NCBI GenBank assembly: GCA_015207195.1
Contig: JADEXJ010000048.1
Span: forward strand, 1-39,218
DNA: 39,218 nucleotides
From: Pleurocapsales cyanobacterium LEGE 10410
GTDB lineage: Bacteria > Cyanobacteriota > Cyanobacteriia > Cyanobacteriales > Xenococcaceae
Direction of reading: 5' to 3'
Below are positions 12,110-18,488 of the stretch, piece after piece; position 1 is the stretch's first letter; the number at the start of each line of letters is the position of its first letter. Made by a program: the position numbers and the translations under genes. The notes beneath the pieces are model-generated. The model saw nothing but the letters and a program-made list of their open reading frames with translations. It was not told the origin of the DNA and did no database searches.

Positions 12110-13195
12110 ATGCTGTCATATGCCCTAGCGATCGTCGTAGCCTCAAGTAGTTTGGTGTTGTTCTTAACCGCTTTTTTTATGTCGGATATTCATCGCCAGG
12201 ATGACTTTTTATGGAGTGCCGTAGGCTTGTTTTATGCCTTAATATTGTGGTTTTGTGCCAGAAATATTACGGGAGCCGTGCTTTTGGGACAGACTGCTGC
12301 CACGGGTTTATTGGTCGTGTATGGTTGGCAAACTCTGAAGTTGAGAAAAGCGATCGCCAATCCAGCCCAAGCAGCCGAAATTAGTAATTTTTCTGTCTTA
12401 CAAAGTATCAATAATCTATTGAAACGTAACAAGTCTAAAACAAAACCAGCTGTCACCCCTACCGAAAGTCCGACTATGCCCAAGGTGACAGAACAAGAAA
12501 TAGCAATTCCTCAAGCTGCTGAGACTAAAACTACACCTGCAAAAGACGAAGTTTCCTCTGACTCGACTCAAGACAGACAAACAGCCCCGAAAACGGTAGA
12601 CACCAATATTTCTCTTCCAGAAGACCAGCCTGTCAAAGAAACAACTACTGTTGAGGTAGACGATGCTAATTCTCAACCCGCAGCTACAACAGATAACAAA
12701 GCGCAACAAGAACATAAGCATTCTGCAACTCAGCCTCAAAAGACATCAAATATGTCCGAAGCCGAAGTGGATAAAACAGATCGAGTTCAACCTCAACCAG
12801 TTGTTCGGGACAACCAAATAGAAACCTCTTCGGTTTCTGGTGAAAATGCCAAAACCCAACCAGAAACCAAAGTAAAACCAGCTGAAAAAATTGCTAGTGA
12901 CAGTCAAGAACAAATTAAGATGCCCAAGGTAGATGTCGAACCAGCATCCACAACGGTTGATCCTGAAATAACCGAACCTGAAAAAATTCCGCAAAAAAAA
13001 GCATCATCCCTTGACTCGTTAGAAACAGTAGAAGTCGCTGAAGTGTTAGAAGCAGTTCCAGAAGATGTATCGAGCGATGGAGAATCGGACGACTCGAACA
13101 TTATTGAGGTGACTACTACGGAGATTAATATTACTACTGAAACCAAAACAATCGATCCAGATCGAGATGATCATCCCGACTCAGAACAAAAATAA
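12110..13195 (+). CDS. Ycf66-family membrane protein with long acidic tail
   Basis: The N-terminal 85 residues hold three hydrophobic segments (about 3-24, 36-51 and 54-72) ending in LVVYGWQTLKLRKAIA, the pattern of the Ycf66 family of cyanobacteria and plastids. Residues 100-361 are a disordered, repetitive Glu/Thr/Pro/Lys-rich tail with no fold I can see. A TGGAG at 12097-12101 precedes the ATG by 8 bases and supports the start. The role of Ycf66 is unknown. The membrane anchor plus long cytoplasmic or lumenal tail suggests a tether or scaffold, but that is inference. The 266 bases before it contain no gene I can support. Confidence 0.75.
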   Translation: MLSYALAIVVASSSLVLFLTAFFMSDIHRQDDFLWSAVGLFYALILWFCARNITGAVLLGQTAATGLLVVYGWQTLKLRKAIANPAQAAEISNFSVLQSINNLLKRNKSKTKPAVTPTESPTMPKVTEQEIAIPQAAETKTTPAKDEVSSDSTQDRQTAPKTVDTNISLPEDQPVKETTTVEVDDANSQPAATTDNKAQQEHKHSATQPQKTSNMSEAEVDKTDRVQPQPVVRDNQIETSSVSGENAKTQPETKVKPAEKIASDSQEQIKMPKVDVEPASTTVDPEITEPEKIPQKKASSLDSLETVEVAEVLEAVPEDVSSDGESDDSNIIEVTTTEINITTETKTIDPDRDDHPDSEQK

Positions 13196-14142: not shown

Positions 14143-14994
14143 TTATTTATTTAAATAAGTAGCATGATGCTGAATATGATCTTTTATAAAACTACTAATC
14201 GTAAAATAGCTGTGATCGTATCCCGTTTGCCATCGCAAATTAAGATTTTGTTGCACTTGTTCACAAGCTTTCTGAAATTTTTCGGGCAGCAGTTGTTGTT
14301 GTTGATAAAATTGGTCGTCAGTTCCCTGATCGATCAAGATTGTCGAATCTAACTGAGTATGTTTAATTAGTTCACTAGCATCATATTCTGCCCACTTTTG
14401 CCTGTCGTTCCCTAAATATGCCGTAAACGCTTTTTTACCCCAAGGACAATCCATTGGTGCTGCAATAGGAGCAAAAGCTGACACTGATAAATATTGTTGG
14501 GGATTTTTGAGCGCGCAAATCAATGCCCCGTGTCCGCCCATTGAATGCCCGAAAATGCTTTGTTTGTCTGGTTTGACCGAAAAATTGGCAATAATCAGGG
14601 CAGGTAATTCTTGAGTAATGTAGCTATACATTTGGTAGTGTTTTCGCCAAGGGCTTTCCGTAGCATCTACATAAAAACTCGCACCACTTCCCAAATCCCA
14701 GGTATCATCTTCTCCTGGTATTCTTGTATGACGAGGGCTAGTATCTGGAACTACTAGCATGATTCCCAATTCAGCAGCATATTGTTGTGCGCCAGCTTTG
14801 GTAATGAAGTTTTCTTCAGTGCAGGTTAATCCAGATAAATAGTAAAGAATTGGTACTGCCTGAGACTGTGCTTGGGGTGGCAGATAAACCGCAAAATTCA
14901 TCTCGTGGTTACAAGCGGATGAATGATGGGAGTAATAGGCAACAGTGCCATCGAAACAGCGGTATTCTGACTTGAGATTGGGAGAATTAGACAT
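14143..14994 (-). CDS. S-formylglutathione hydrolase (esterase D family)
   Basis: Serine hydrolase that splits S-formylglutathione to formate and glutathione, the last step of glutathione-dependent formaldehyde detoxification. The alpha/beta-hydrolase signature [10 protein letters not shown] places the nucleophile at Ser151, the acid near DQGTDDQF, and the base at His261 in [19 protein letters not shown] is also typical of the family. I start it at ATG 14994 ([11 protein letters not shown], 283 residues, the usual length); an upstream frame extension relies on a TTG. The partner formaldehyde dehydrogenase is not adjacent. Confidence 0.93.
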
Positions 14995-15202
14995 AATTTT
15001 GAGTTGGCTACTTACCAATCAAAATATCTGGTTCAGGTTGTCGGTTGCAATACCTTGGATAAATTTAAGACTTTTTATGTAGTGTATCAAATACATATTG
15101 TAAGCTTGTATAATTGCGTTGCTTAATATTTGAGTTTATTTTTCCTCTTTACCATGACTGAAATAGATATATTAAAAACAAGACAATATTCCTAATTAAT
15201 TG

Positions 15203-15586
15203 ATGAAATTAAATAAAATTATAGCGATCGCTAGCACGGGTTTTTTATGCTCGATCTTATTAGCTAGCTGTGGAGGACAAGCCAAAATGGAACAGTGTAA
15301 GTTTGTAGAAATTGAGCCTGGAGAGTTTGAAGTCGAGTTTGGCGATATTGATGCTGAAGGTGGCGAAGTAGAAATGGTGTGCGGAGACAAAATTGTTGAT
15401 GTGCCTTGGAATCAATTTAAAAGAAGACTGCGTGTCGATCCTCAGAGGTATATTAATAATCTTGAAGCGTTTAAACGAGAAGTTACTTGTCTGATTAACG
15501 AAAAATCTCAAGATAAAGTAGTTTTTTGTTCTCGACCAAATTCTAACGATGAGTTTGTCAGCTTGAAGTTCAATTATGATGATTAG
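15203..15586 (+). CDS. Small cysteine-rich lipoprotein
   Basis: A 127-residue protein with a clear lipoprotein signal: basic N-terminus (MKLNK), hydrophobic stretch, and the lipobox LLASC about 22 residues in, so the mature chain starts at Cys-Gly-Gly. The mature part is acidic and has four further cysteines (in EQCKF, EMVCGD, EVTCLI and VVFCSR), enough for two disulfides, which suits an exported protein. No domain is recognised. The ATG at 15203 follows a TTG that also opens the frame; ATG is preferred. It ends 14 bases before the exonuclease-ATPase gene in the same direction, so the two are probably co-transcribed. Confidence 0.8.
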   Translation: MKLNKIIAIASTGFLCSILLASCGGQAKMEQCKFVEIEPGEFEVEFGDIDAEGGEVEMVCGDKIVDVPWNQFKRRLRVDPQRYINNLEAFKREVTCLINEKSQDKVVFCSRPNSNDEFVSLKFNYDD

Positions 15587-15600
15587 ATTAATACTGCTCG

Positions 15601-18084
15601 GTGATTGAGAGATATTTAAACCCATTTAAACCGCTAGATTTTGTAGTTATCGACACTGAAGGGCGAAGAGAACTAAGAGAAATTGCTATTATCAATCATG
15701 AAGGAAAATTAATTTATGAGGCTCTAAACCAAGAACATCCTCAAGCTGTAGAACGTGCCTTTAAAAGTAAGCCTTTACAAACTATACTGCTAGATTTCTT
15801 AGAGATTACTCGCCAAAAAATACTAGTATTTCATCACGCTTTACATGATATCCAAGTATTGAAAAATAGTTTTAAAAAAGTTAATCTGGCTTGGCAAAAC
15901 CCTAGTCAGGTACATTGTACTCACAAACTGGCTCAACAGTCTTTTCCACAGTACTGTTCTTACTCTTTGGAGTATTTATCCAAAAAGCTAAATCTAAAAG
16001 TAGATCGCCAGTACTTCGATCCCAGGCAAGCTCATGTAGCCAGATATGATGCTCTATTTACATACCAATTATATTTAGCAATTCAGCATACAATGTCTCA
16101 AGCTTCTATACAAGTTAATCCCTTTGGTAGTAGTCGCGTCGATAATCCTTTTCAAAGCCACCCAGACAATAGTAAGATTTATCACGCTCAATATACTACT
16201 TTAGAATCGGTAATTGACGATATTAAATACGATCCAAACCATCAAAGCAAGGGCGCGGTGGTTATTGGTAAACCAGGTACGGGAAAAACTCATCTAATTA
16301 TGCGTTTAGCCAAACGAAGATTGGAGCTAAATCGCCTGTTGTTTGTTCCTTGTCCCAATGATGCCAACACGATTAAATATCATACCTATAGCTGTATTTT
16401 AGAATCTCTGAACAAAAGCATTCCAGGAACGAGGTTTAATCAGCTAGAGTATTTCTTAGCCAATACTTTTGTGGGCATTATTAAATCGAGTAATCATGAT
16501 ACTCAAAAAATAAAAAGCATTTTAGATAAGATTCAAAATGAGCCTCTAAAGCTATATGAAATATTAGGAGGAGAAGGTACTAAAACCAGAAGAAACAATT
16601 GGGACTCTATTGAAAAAATAACCACTGAATGGTGGTTTAGAAAATACGGTGCCACGGGCTATGCTCCAGAAATTATCAAAGGAATTGTAAGATTTTGTCG
16701 TTACTCCGATCTGGGCTACAAACAGCTAGTAAAAAAATGGCTCGCTGCTGATGAATTAGAGCCAGAAGAATTAGATAAAATTGGCTTGAGTAGTTGGCAC
16801 AATGAGATTAGTAAAGAAGACTTTTCCCTGGAAGCGATTGCAGTTTTAGGTAAACTATCTCTGTTACACGAACCATTAATTATGGTGTTTGACCAGCTAG
16901 AAATGCTGGGTTTAAAACATAACCAAAATATTTTACTAAACTTTGGTGAAGCGGTAAAAGAGATTTTCACCCTGGTTCCTCACGCTTTAGTGATTCTTAA
17001 TTTATTTCCTGAGCGTTGGCAACAGTTAAAGCAAACCTTTGATGGCTCAATCATCGATCGCATTTCTCAACATCAGATATTTTTAGAGCAACCAACGGCA
17101 GACGAAATCAAAGATATTTTGCAGTTAAAAGCTCAGCAAACGGGAACAGGCTTAACAAATTTATTTACATCTCAAGAGATCGAACAAATTATTGGCGAAC
17201 GGCGATCGATTCGTGCAGTGTTAAATAATGCTGCTGAGTATTTCCGCTATAAGTATAAAAATATTCCCTTGCCTGAGAAAAAGGCTGATAATAATTCCTC
17301 AGAAAATTTGCTTGGAGAAAATGTTTTAACTAGATTAAATAAGCTAGAAGCTCAACAAAATCGCCTAGAAAAACTGCTACAAAATATTGCTCAAGCATTT
17401 AATACTTTTACCGTACCTGATAAAACAAGTGTAGAAAGCGAAGTAGCAAATCATAATCCCACTCATATTCCGCGAGACAGCTCAAATAATTTATCCCTCA
17501 ATTTAGTTCCAACCTTAGAGGAAAAAGTTAGAGGTTATTTAGAAACTCAACAAACAATTCTAGAACAAGATTACAACGAAGCGGAAATTTTGCTCGATGA
17601 AAAAGATGTTGGCAAATTACAGGATATTATTGAGGCTTTAAAAAAAATAACTGAATTAGATACAGATGTTTTACCCAGCAAAAGAGTTTTACCTCCTCAT
17701 CGAATTATTCTGAATAAGAATCTTTGTATTGGGTTTTTGAGTAGCTGTAAGGGTAGTAAGTTTACTTCTAGAATTCAAAACTATAATGAATTTGTCGCTA
17801 CTAAAGAACAAATAAGATTTCTCTTATGGCGTGATGTCAGAAGCGATGTAATTAGGAATAAAACAATAGGAAGCCGAGAAATTAGTAAACTCAACAATAC
17901 TAAAAATGGGGAGTTCATGGCATTCGATCGCAACAATCGCATAACCTTTGAACTAATTCATAAATTTATCAGCGATATATATAATCAAGATTTAGAAATA
18001 GATTTAGATACTGAATTGGAGCCTGCACTAAAAATACTTGCAGATTATTTTAGGGAATATTGGCTGATTGAAGAGTTGTTATAG
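15601..18084 (+). CDS. DEDDh exonuclease - P-loop ATPase fusion, unknown system
   Basis: An 827-residue two-enzyme protein. Residues 12-165 form an RNase T/DnaQ-like 3'-5' exonuclease with all five DEDDh residues: Asp18 and Glu20 (VVIDTEG), Asp83 (HHALHDIQ), and His145 with Asp150 (HVARYD). Residues 210-560 form a P-loop NTPase: Walker A GKPGTGKT (223-230), Walker B LIMVFDQLE with Asp431 followed by Gln instead of the common Glu, then an arginine-rich small domain (IGERRSIRAVLNNAAEYF) of the ORC/STAND-like kind. A short coiled coil spans about 574-600, and an unrecognised C-terminal domain follows (about 690-827). The start is GTG 15601; no in-frame ATG precedes Asp18. A nuclease joined to a regulatory ATPase suggests defence or DNA repair; this is inference. 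Confidence 0.8.
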   Translation: MIERYLNPFKPLDFVVIDTEGRRELREIAIINHEGKLIYEALNQEHPQAVERAFKSKPLQTILLDFLEITRQKILVFHHALHDIQVLKNSFKKVNLAWQNPSQVHCTHKLAQQSFPQYCSYSLEYLSKKLNLKVDRQYFDPRQAHVARYDALFTYQLYLAIQHTMSQASIQVNPFGSSRVDNPFQSHPDNSKIYHAQYTTLESVIDDIKYDPNHQSKGAVVIGKPGTGKTHLIMRLAKRRLELNRLLFVPCPNDANTIKYHTYSCILESLNKSIPGTRFNQLEYFLANTFVGIIKSSNHDTQKIKSILDKIQNEPLKLYEILGGEGTKTRRNNWDSIEKITTEWWFRKYGATGYAPEIIKGIVRFCRYSDLGYKQLVKKWLAADELEPEELDKIGLSSWHNEISKEDFSLEAIAVLGKLSLLHEPLIMVFDQLEMLGLKHNQNILLNFGEAVKEIFTLVPHALVILNLFPERWQQLKQTFDGSIIDRISQHQIFLEQPTADEIKDILQLKAQQTGTGLTNLFTSQEIEQIIGERRSIRAVLNNAAEYFRYKYKNIPLPEKKADNNSSENLLGENVLTRLNKLEAQQNRLEKLLQNIAQAFNTFTVPDKTSVESEVANHNPTHIPRDSSNNLSLNLVPTLEEKVRGYLETQQTILEQDYNEAEILLDEKDVGKLQDIIEALKKITELDTDVLPSKRVLPPHRIILNKNLCIGFLSSCKGSKFTSRIQNYNEFVATKEQIRFLLWRDVRSDVIRNKTIGSREISKLNNTKNGEFMAFDRNNRITFELIHKFISDIYNQDLEIDLDTELEPALKILADYFREYWLIEELL

Positions 18085-18293: not shown

Positions 18294-18488
18294 CTAGCTA
18301 TCGCCTTTAAAATCATCTTTATCTACTTTGGGTACAATATCTGGGCGTTCCATGTTTTCCCAACCCGCGGGACGCTTAGAATTGTACCAGGCGATCGAGC
18401 CGATAGTCACAGCAGCTATAAAACCAACTACGTAAACTGCAACAAAATAAGTAGGAAATTCACCAGTCACTGCAAATAGCAAACTCAT
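18294..18488 (-). CDS. Single-helix thylakoid protein, Psb35-like
   Basis: A 64-residue protein with one membrane helix (about residues 12-35: YFVAVYVVGFIAAVTIGSIA) followed by the polar phrase WYNSKRPAGWENMERPDIVPKV. This layout is that of a small cyanobacterial protein family I associate with photosystem II assembly (Psb35, linked to the CP47 module). I rely on memory of the motif, not on an alignment, so the name is tentative. It is the terminal part of no visible operon: 209 bases lie after the exonuclease-ATPase gene and 163 bases before the next small gene. Confidence 0.65.
   Translation of the reverse strand: MSLLFAVTGEFPTYFVAVYVVGFIAAVTIGSIAWYNSKRPAGWENMERPDIVPKVDKDDFKGDS

Follow-up and report, generated by a model that had tools for sequence, protein, structure and literature searches.

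The window analyzed here is a stretch of contig JADEXJ010000048.1 of Pleurocapsales cyanobacterium LEGE 10410 (GenBank assembly GCA_015207195.1; positions 1 to 39,218 of the forward strand; 39,218 nucleotides). It contains a gene for a single 827-amino-acid (aa) protein in which a DEDDh exonuclease domain, an Orc/Cdc6-type AAA+ ATPase and a compact C-terminal domain follow one another (Table 1). A small lipoprotein gene lies immediately upstream. We refer to the fusion as the nuclease-ATPase and describe its domains, its relatives and their genomic settings.

The exonuclease domain was identified by both profile matches and conserved residues. Pfam RNase_T (PF00929) matched the 827-aa protein at 9.8e-9 (score, 36.4 bits; cut-off, 24), the PADLOC "DEDDh" model matched it at 1.8e-12, and the best profile matches of the domain were DnaQ and PolC, of the DEDDh family. 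A first-pass annotation made from the sequence alone had placed all five DEDDh residues in one protein, which the family alignment bore out: D18, E20, D83, H145 and D150 were identical in all 46 rows with a complete exonuclease domain. This alignment comprises 50 rows and excludes partial or broken copies (L039, L056-L058, and L126-L128); among the four remaining rows, L044 and L053 begin at a contig end, and L049 and L051 are without the domain. Median identity to the window protein over the 50 rows was 0.46 for the exonuclease, 0.52 for the ATPase and 0.40 for the C-terminus. Kinship with DnaQ, PolC and DinG predicts a 3'-5' polarity and a DNA substrate. The domain differs from the DnaQ and PolC proofreading exonucleases in not being part of a polymerase. 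In DinG of Gram-positives, the DEDDh exonuclease is fused to a helicase (PMC12345164). That motor belongs to superfamily 2, whereas the one here is AAA+. Cap18 (a 3'-5' exonuclease of cyclic-oligonucleotide-based antiphage signaling systems) and Cas2-DEDDh are separate or otherwise fused proteins that, unlike the window protein, lack an AAA+ module.

The ATPase active site was conserved throughout the alignment. Residues G223, G226, G228 and K229 of Walker A, D431, Q432 and E434 of Walker B (FDQLE, residues 430-434), and R487 and R538 were identical in 50 of 50 rows, in agreement with the perfect Walker A (223-230) and Asp-Gln-containing Walker B originally annotated. Pfam AAA_16 matched the protein at 4.6e-6, under its cut-off, and structure prediction and comparison related the fold of residues 169-563 to ORC/Cdc6 and TnsC. 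The proposal of a nuclease fused to an ATPase of the signal transduction ATPases with numerous domains (STAND) or ORC type was borne out for the ORC-like fold; STAND membership found no support. Superstructure-forming C-terminal sensor repeats are a feature of Avs-like STAND NTPases; the window protein has instead a compact alpha/beta domain, and nSTAND families matched it below cut-off only. The linker is nearly free to vary (median identity of 0.19 to the window protein over residues 560-650), and the predicted local distance difference test (pLDDT) score was low over residues 603-635. Beyond it, the predicted structure showed a single, compact 188-aa domain of alpha/beta type, with only two short helices after residue 794. 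The first-pass annotation had called this region unrecognized, and so it stayed by sequence: Pfam gave nothing above cut-off, and a 44-row profile compared with solved sequences reached a best E value of 0.73. A restriction endonuclease (REase)-like nature of the domain is weakly suggested. Searching PADLOC 2.0.0 yielded no whole-protein match to a catalogued anti-phage component, only part-length matches to DEDDh, to the exonuclease part of PDC-S48 and to the P-loop of mad8.

Table 1. Features of the nuclease-ATPase locus and its chromosomal flanks in the window.
Feature	Positions	Strand	Remarks
827-aa DEDDh exonuclease - Orc/Cdc6-type AAA+ ATPase - C-terminal domain, possibly REase-like	15601..18084	+	GTG start
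DEDDh 3'-5' exonuclease domain (predicted), residues 12-167, catalytic D18, E20, D83, H145, D150	15634..16101	+
Orc/Cdc6-clade AAA+ ATPase, residues 169-563, Walker A 223-230, Walker B 427-434, invariant R487 and R538	16105..17289	+
Helical region and linker, poorly conserved, residues 564-639	17290..17517	+	identity, pLDDT
C-terminal domain, residues 640-827, alpha-beta-beta-beta-alpha-beta core, possibly REase-like, D..ExK not seen	17518..18081	+
Small lipoprotein gene, judged outside the system	15203..15586	+	no linkage
Esterase-family gene, chromosomal flank, next to the locus in some members of the genus	14143..15018	-	Pfam Esterase 3.7e-63
64-aa protein gene, chromosomal flank	18294..18488	-

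Family searches also surfaced a more loosely related group of ATPases (about 610-820 aa). When profiles were compared by hhalign, the window family aligned with the ATPases of loci containing winged helix-turn-helix (wHTH) and FtsK genes over residues 168-785 (probability 99.6, E value 4.7e-25), and with a second ATPase subfamily at 7e-24; the alignment to the paralogue profile ended 119 positions short of that profile's end. A wHTH-type gene was present in 31 and an FtsK gene in 8 of 33 paralogous loci, which span 6 to 19 kb and include several near copies from sister genomes. Against those 31, a linked multi-wHTH (DndG-like) gene was found in none of 57 family loci, and a hidden Markov model (HMM) of cyanobacterial FtsK detected no linked FtsK gene in the same 57, six of which are shorter than 10 kb. 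Nor was a separate ATPase of the wHTH/FtsK-locus type found in the window's own genome. The FtsK protein of one paralogous locus (L062) combines 3'-5' exonuclease and PD-(D/E)XK domains and matches SspH at 2.2e-66. In three loci (L178, L171, and L061), three different Orc/Cdc6-type ATPases were clustered with wHTH genes, accompanied in L061 and L178 by FtsK.

Systems of the organization Orc/CDC6-iREase-wHTH-HerA/FtsK have been described and predicted from comparative genomics to act against invaders, with the multi-wHTH gene in a subset of the loci (PMC10853773). The paralogous ATPase loci match this organization, having been identified by that description and not by the paper's sequences. The window family shares with these "HerA/FtsK capture" ATPases an Orc/Cdc6 AAA+ module with a further domain positioned where theirs have the dead REase, colinearity in profile alignment with cyanobacterial loci so organized, and patchy, mobile contexts. 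It differs in its fused N-terminal DEDDh exonuclease and in lacking the C-terminal wHTH that follows their iREase. By these defining features, the window family is a relative, and not a member, of the Orc/CDC6-iREase ATPases. Its fold of residues 169-563 is also that of TnsC and Cdc6/ORC AAA+ proteins, from which it differs in being nuclease-fused and without wHTH; no recurrent TnsC-type transposase partner was seen. No description of a DEDDh-Orc/Cdc6 fusion was found in the literature searched, which did not extend to supplements; judged by that literature and by the libraries of Pfam, PADLOC and NCBIfam, the architecture is a new form of an already known type.

We next consider the lipoprotein, which the first-pass annotation had tentatively paired with the ATPase, as a possible sensor or else an unrelated neighbor. 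The gene itself is as annotated: an open reading frame (ORF) from the ATG at 15203 to a stop codon at 15584-15586, with the lipobox LASC followed by four more cysteines, ends 14 bases before the GTG at 15601. Its product matched no family in Pfam, PADLOC or NCBIfam. Co-occurrence was refuted apart from the window itself. The lipoprotein was present in 5 of 60 genomes, including the window's own; in the other four, the nuclease-ATPase gene was not within the 3.3 kb fetched around it, and none of the 31 first-fetched loci (26 family, 5 paralogue) contained the ORF. It was therefore rejected as a system partner. A 35-aa remnant of its start (46%) lies upstream of the nuclease-ATPase gene in one congener (L148), so the lipoprotein looks like a passing neighbor; it seems unrelated to the nuclease-ATPase.

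The distribution of the nuclease-ATPase was patchy and marked by decay. True relatives were present in 27 of 100 close genomes (own genome counted), including 8 of 13 in the genus, and three of the 27 copies were broken (split in G021, internally deleted in G026, a remnant in G020). Across 291 genomes drawn evenly from the class, 29 had a large match, in pieces in three (G127, G194, and G326), and two more had remnants (G189 and G279). The gene is not present in all cyanobacteria, and no named family was found for it; universal occurrence beside conserved housekeeping genes and a named family of non-defense function were two of the outcomes that the first-pass annotation had set against a defense role. 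Outside the class but inside the phylum, there were short exonuclease-type matches only (33 genomes among the matches listed; best E value, 5e-9). A single-protein search of genome contigs, which reaches close relatives only, returned two loci. In a plasmid collection, nine records matched, all of them cyanobacterial, and in seven the match covered 80% or more of the protein. Contigs longer than 2.7 Mb carry 15 copies.

Among the five genus members without the gene, an empty site was seen in one (G011), in which both flanking genes lie about 600 bp apart with no nuclease-ATPase gene between them (L151). Three others (G005, G006, and G007) have the esterase gene, which we take to encode S-formylglutathione hydrolase, with no 64-aa gene within the 1.5 kb fetched, and the fifth (G009) gave no esterase match. 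Further upstream in the window (12110-13195) is an ORF of 361 aa with a very high content of Glu, Thr, Lys and Pro in its second half. In a tree of the 50 rows, five families with at least two rows each formed single groups (f1 with 11 rows, f33 with 8, and f25, f22, and f44), and seven families did not, a pattern that suggests predominantly vertical descent, accompanied by loss and some transfer. The most divergent member in the tree (L124:8986-11313), on an end branch of 3.7 changes per column, matched the window protein by blastp only up to residue 549.

Six regions from the nine plasmid records were read, and defense genes adjoin the nuclease-ATPase on several plasmids. On p11801_1, ThsB is next downstream at 119 bp, followed by ThsA (Thoeris; PADLOC, 1.2e-71 and 3.5e-66). 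The next gene downstream on pIITB3_1, at 45 bp, encodes a type IIG restriction-methyltransferase (PADLOC, 3e-282). On two Nostoc plasmids, the neighbor is the type IV restriction enzyme GmrSD, as one 772-aa gene 33 bp downstream on HK-01 plasmid2 (L102) and, interrupted by a transposase gene, 30 bp downstream on C057 p057_H (L104). In L103, PADLOC candidate-defense models match the adjacent upstream gene, past which lie genes annotated as phospholipase D and helicase. On a Tolypothrix plasmid (L101:8071-11433), annotated DUF87 (HerA-type) and NurA genes lie just upstream; neither was matched by the FtsK HMM.

Two comparisons show how the plasmids differ around the gene. Stretches of 17.3 and 24.2 kb of pIITB3_1 and pIITB6_1 share 1,730 bp with parA at 98.7%, encoding identical ParA proteins, and this shared segment ends 60 bp before the nuclease-ATPase start; beyond the divergence, genes for a small hypothetical protein, an Abi-family protein and a cytosine methyltransferase follow on pIITB6_1, without the nuclease-ATPase. 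Near the divergence point, the boundary sequence on the parA side recurs in pIITB6_1 as a second, degenerate copy of 91 bp (86%; L182:7023-7113), possibly a trace of exchange. The nuclease-ATPase gene is common to plasmids p11801_1 and pIITB3_1 (86% identity across 2.7 kb of DNA), which part ways at the gene end and have ParA proteins that are only 47% identical; the gene and its neighbor thus have different histories.

Taken together, the locus is best read as encoding a predicted stand-alone, single-gene anti-invader nuclease, a function to which we assign a probability of about 0.55. It rests on the exonuclease and ATPase identities with both active sites conserved, the homology to wHTH/FtsK-locus ATPases, the patchy occurrence with decay, and the plasmid carriage and plasmid defense-gene neighbors. 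The original idea of a defense module keeps its nuclease and ORC-like ATPase, while its second gene and its STAND identity are not supported. Several observations weigh against this reading. Chromosomal neighbors are mixed: PADLOC matched 4 of 10 hand-picked ones, two of them to generic AAA or helicase types, and at least 4 of another 10 are housekeeping by Pfam (phosphotransacetylase, dihydrouridine synthase, O-antigen ligase, and sugar kinase), although these 20, being hand-picked, are not a sample. Except for an IS605-type transposase gene, no partner gene recurs across unrelated loci, and no relative was found in the viral contigs and phages searched. Movement appears slow, since five families remain single groups in the gene tree. 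The C-terminus alone aligned weakly with the paralogues (P values of 0.0014 and 0.15), and in one genus (L049 and L051) the ATPase and C-terminus are kept without the nuclease domain. These two exonuclease-less orthologues (L049:5173-7098 and L051:9004-10929) each follow, at a distance of 21 bp, a gene that encodes about 740 aa and whose L049 copy matches amino-acid permease/SLC12 families.

PADLOC was also run on the chromosomal neighbors at 16 loci and on 16 control windows in the same genomes. It gave 146 model matches for 144 neighbor proteins and 34 for 110 control proteins (of 111; one of about 2,490 aa was left out), counts that are of overlapping models and not of proteins. PD-T4-6 models, presumably generic kinases, predominate in both sets among the families listed, and the neighbor set also includes Cas12f-type models, which IS605-type transposases can trigger. 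The enrichment over controls is suggestive only.

Some of the same evidence would suit other functions. An ORC-like loader could recruit an exonuclease of the proofreading type to damaged ends or stalled forks, making the protein a chromosomal DNA-maintenance factor; its DnaQ/PolC/DinG-like exonuclease, largely vertical inheritance within several families and a chromosomal site common to part of the genus would fit. We consider this unlikely: 5 of 13 genus genomes lack the gene and 260 of the 291 class genomes have not even a remnant of it, several genomes have broken copies, plasmids carry it, and in G011 it is missing between both flanking genes. Plasmid-versus-plasmid competition or plasmid maintenance, in which ORC-type origin recognition would direct the protein to incoming replicons and chromosomal copies would be domesticated, draws on the nine plasmid records, the divergent orientation next to parA on Synechococcus elongatus plasmids and the ORC/Cdc6 fold. 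It too is improbable: a CyRepA1-type replication protein is encoded on p11801_1 itself, the par region also occurs on pIITB6_1 in the gene's absence, and 15 copies are on the large contigs noted above.

The effector-ATPase layout, the strict conservation of both active sites and the Thoeris neighbor, a system that acts by suicide, could instead point to abortive infection, with the ATPase sensing infection and the exonuclease destroying host DNA. No separate sensor domain was found in the protein, however, and an exonuclease, which needs ends, would alone be a poor chromosome killer, so that this role is quite unlikely. Least credible is a TnsC/TniB-like role in a Tn7/Mu-like transposon, as its cargo or as an accessory ATPase. 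The ATPase fold would allow it, but among the 10 neighbors scanned with Pfam a Mu-transposase-type gene occurred at L115 only, and other nearby transposase genes are of insertion sequence types (IS605-type at L034, L041, and L110; annotated transposases in L102 and L104, that of L104 being of the ISL3 family).

For the anti-invader nuclease, a mechanism can be sketched. Judging from ORC/Cdc6 kinship, the AAA+ module would assemble on DNA in an ATP-dependent manner, the dead-REase-like C-terminal domain might aid recognition of DNA or a partner, and the tethered DEDDh domain would digest DNA from 3' ends; incoming or replicating foreign DNA of a phage or plasmid, the presumed trigger, would thereby be degraded. 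More tentatively, and in our view somewhat doubtfully, the family may be a minimal immune machine in which ORC-type AAA+ assemblies load a proofreading-type 3'-5' exonuclease on replicating or entering foreign DNA, having arisen by fusion of a DEDDh domain to the Orc/Cdc6-iREase ATPase of a defense system with several genes, whose wHTH and FtsK partners the fusion would have made dispensable, and having spread among cyanobacteria.

If the anti-invader reading is true, the nuclease-ATPase would be a one-gene, easily cloned relative of the ORC/Cdc6-based defense class predicted from comparative genomics in PMC10853773. It would offer a direct route to asking how an origin-recognition ATPase separates foreign DNA from self, and plasmids that have a common par region and differ in carriage of the gene provide a ready natural comparison. 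For cyanobacteria, it would add one more defense gene.
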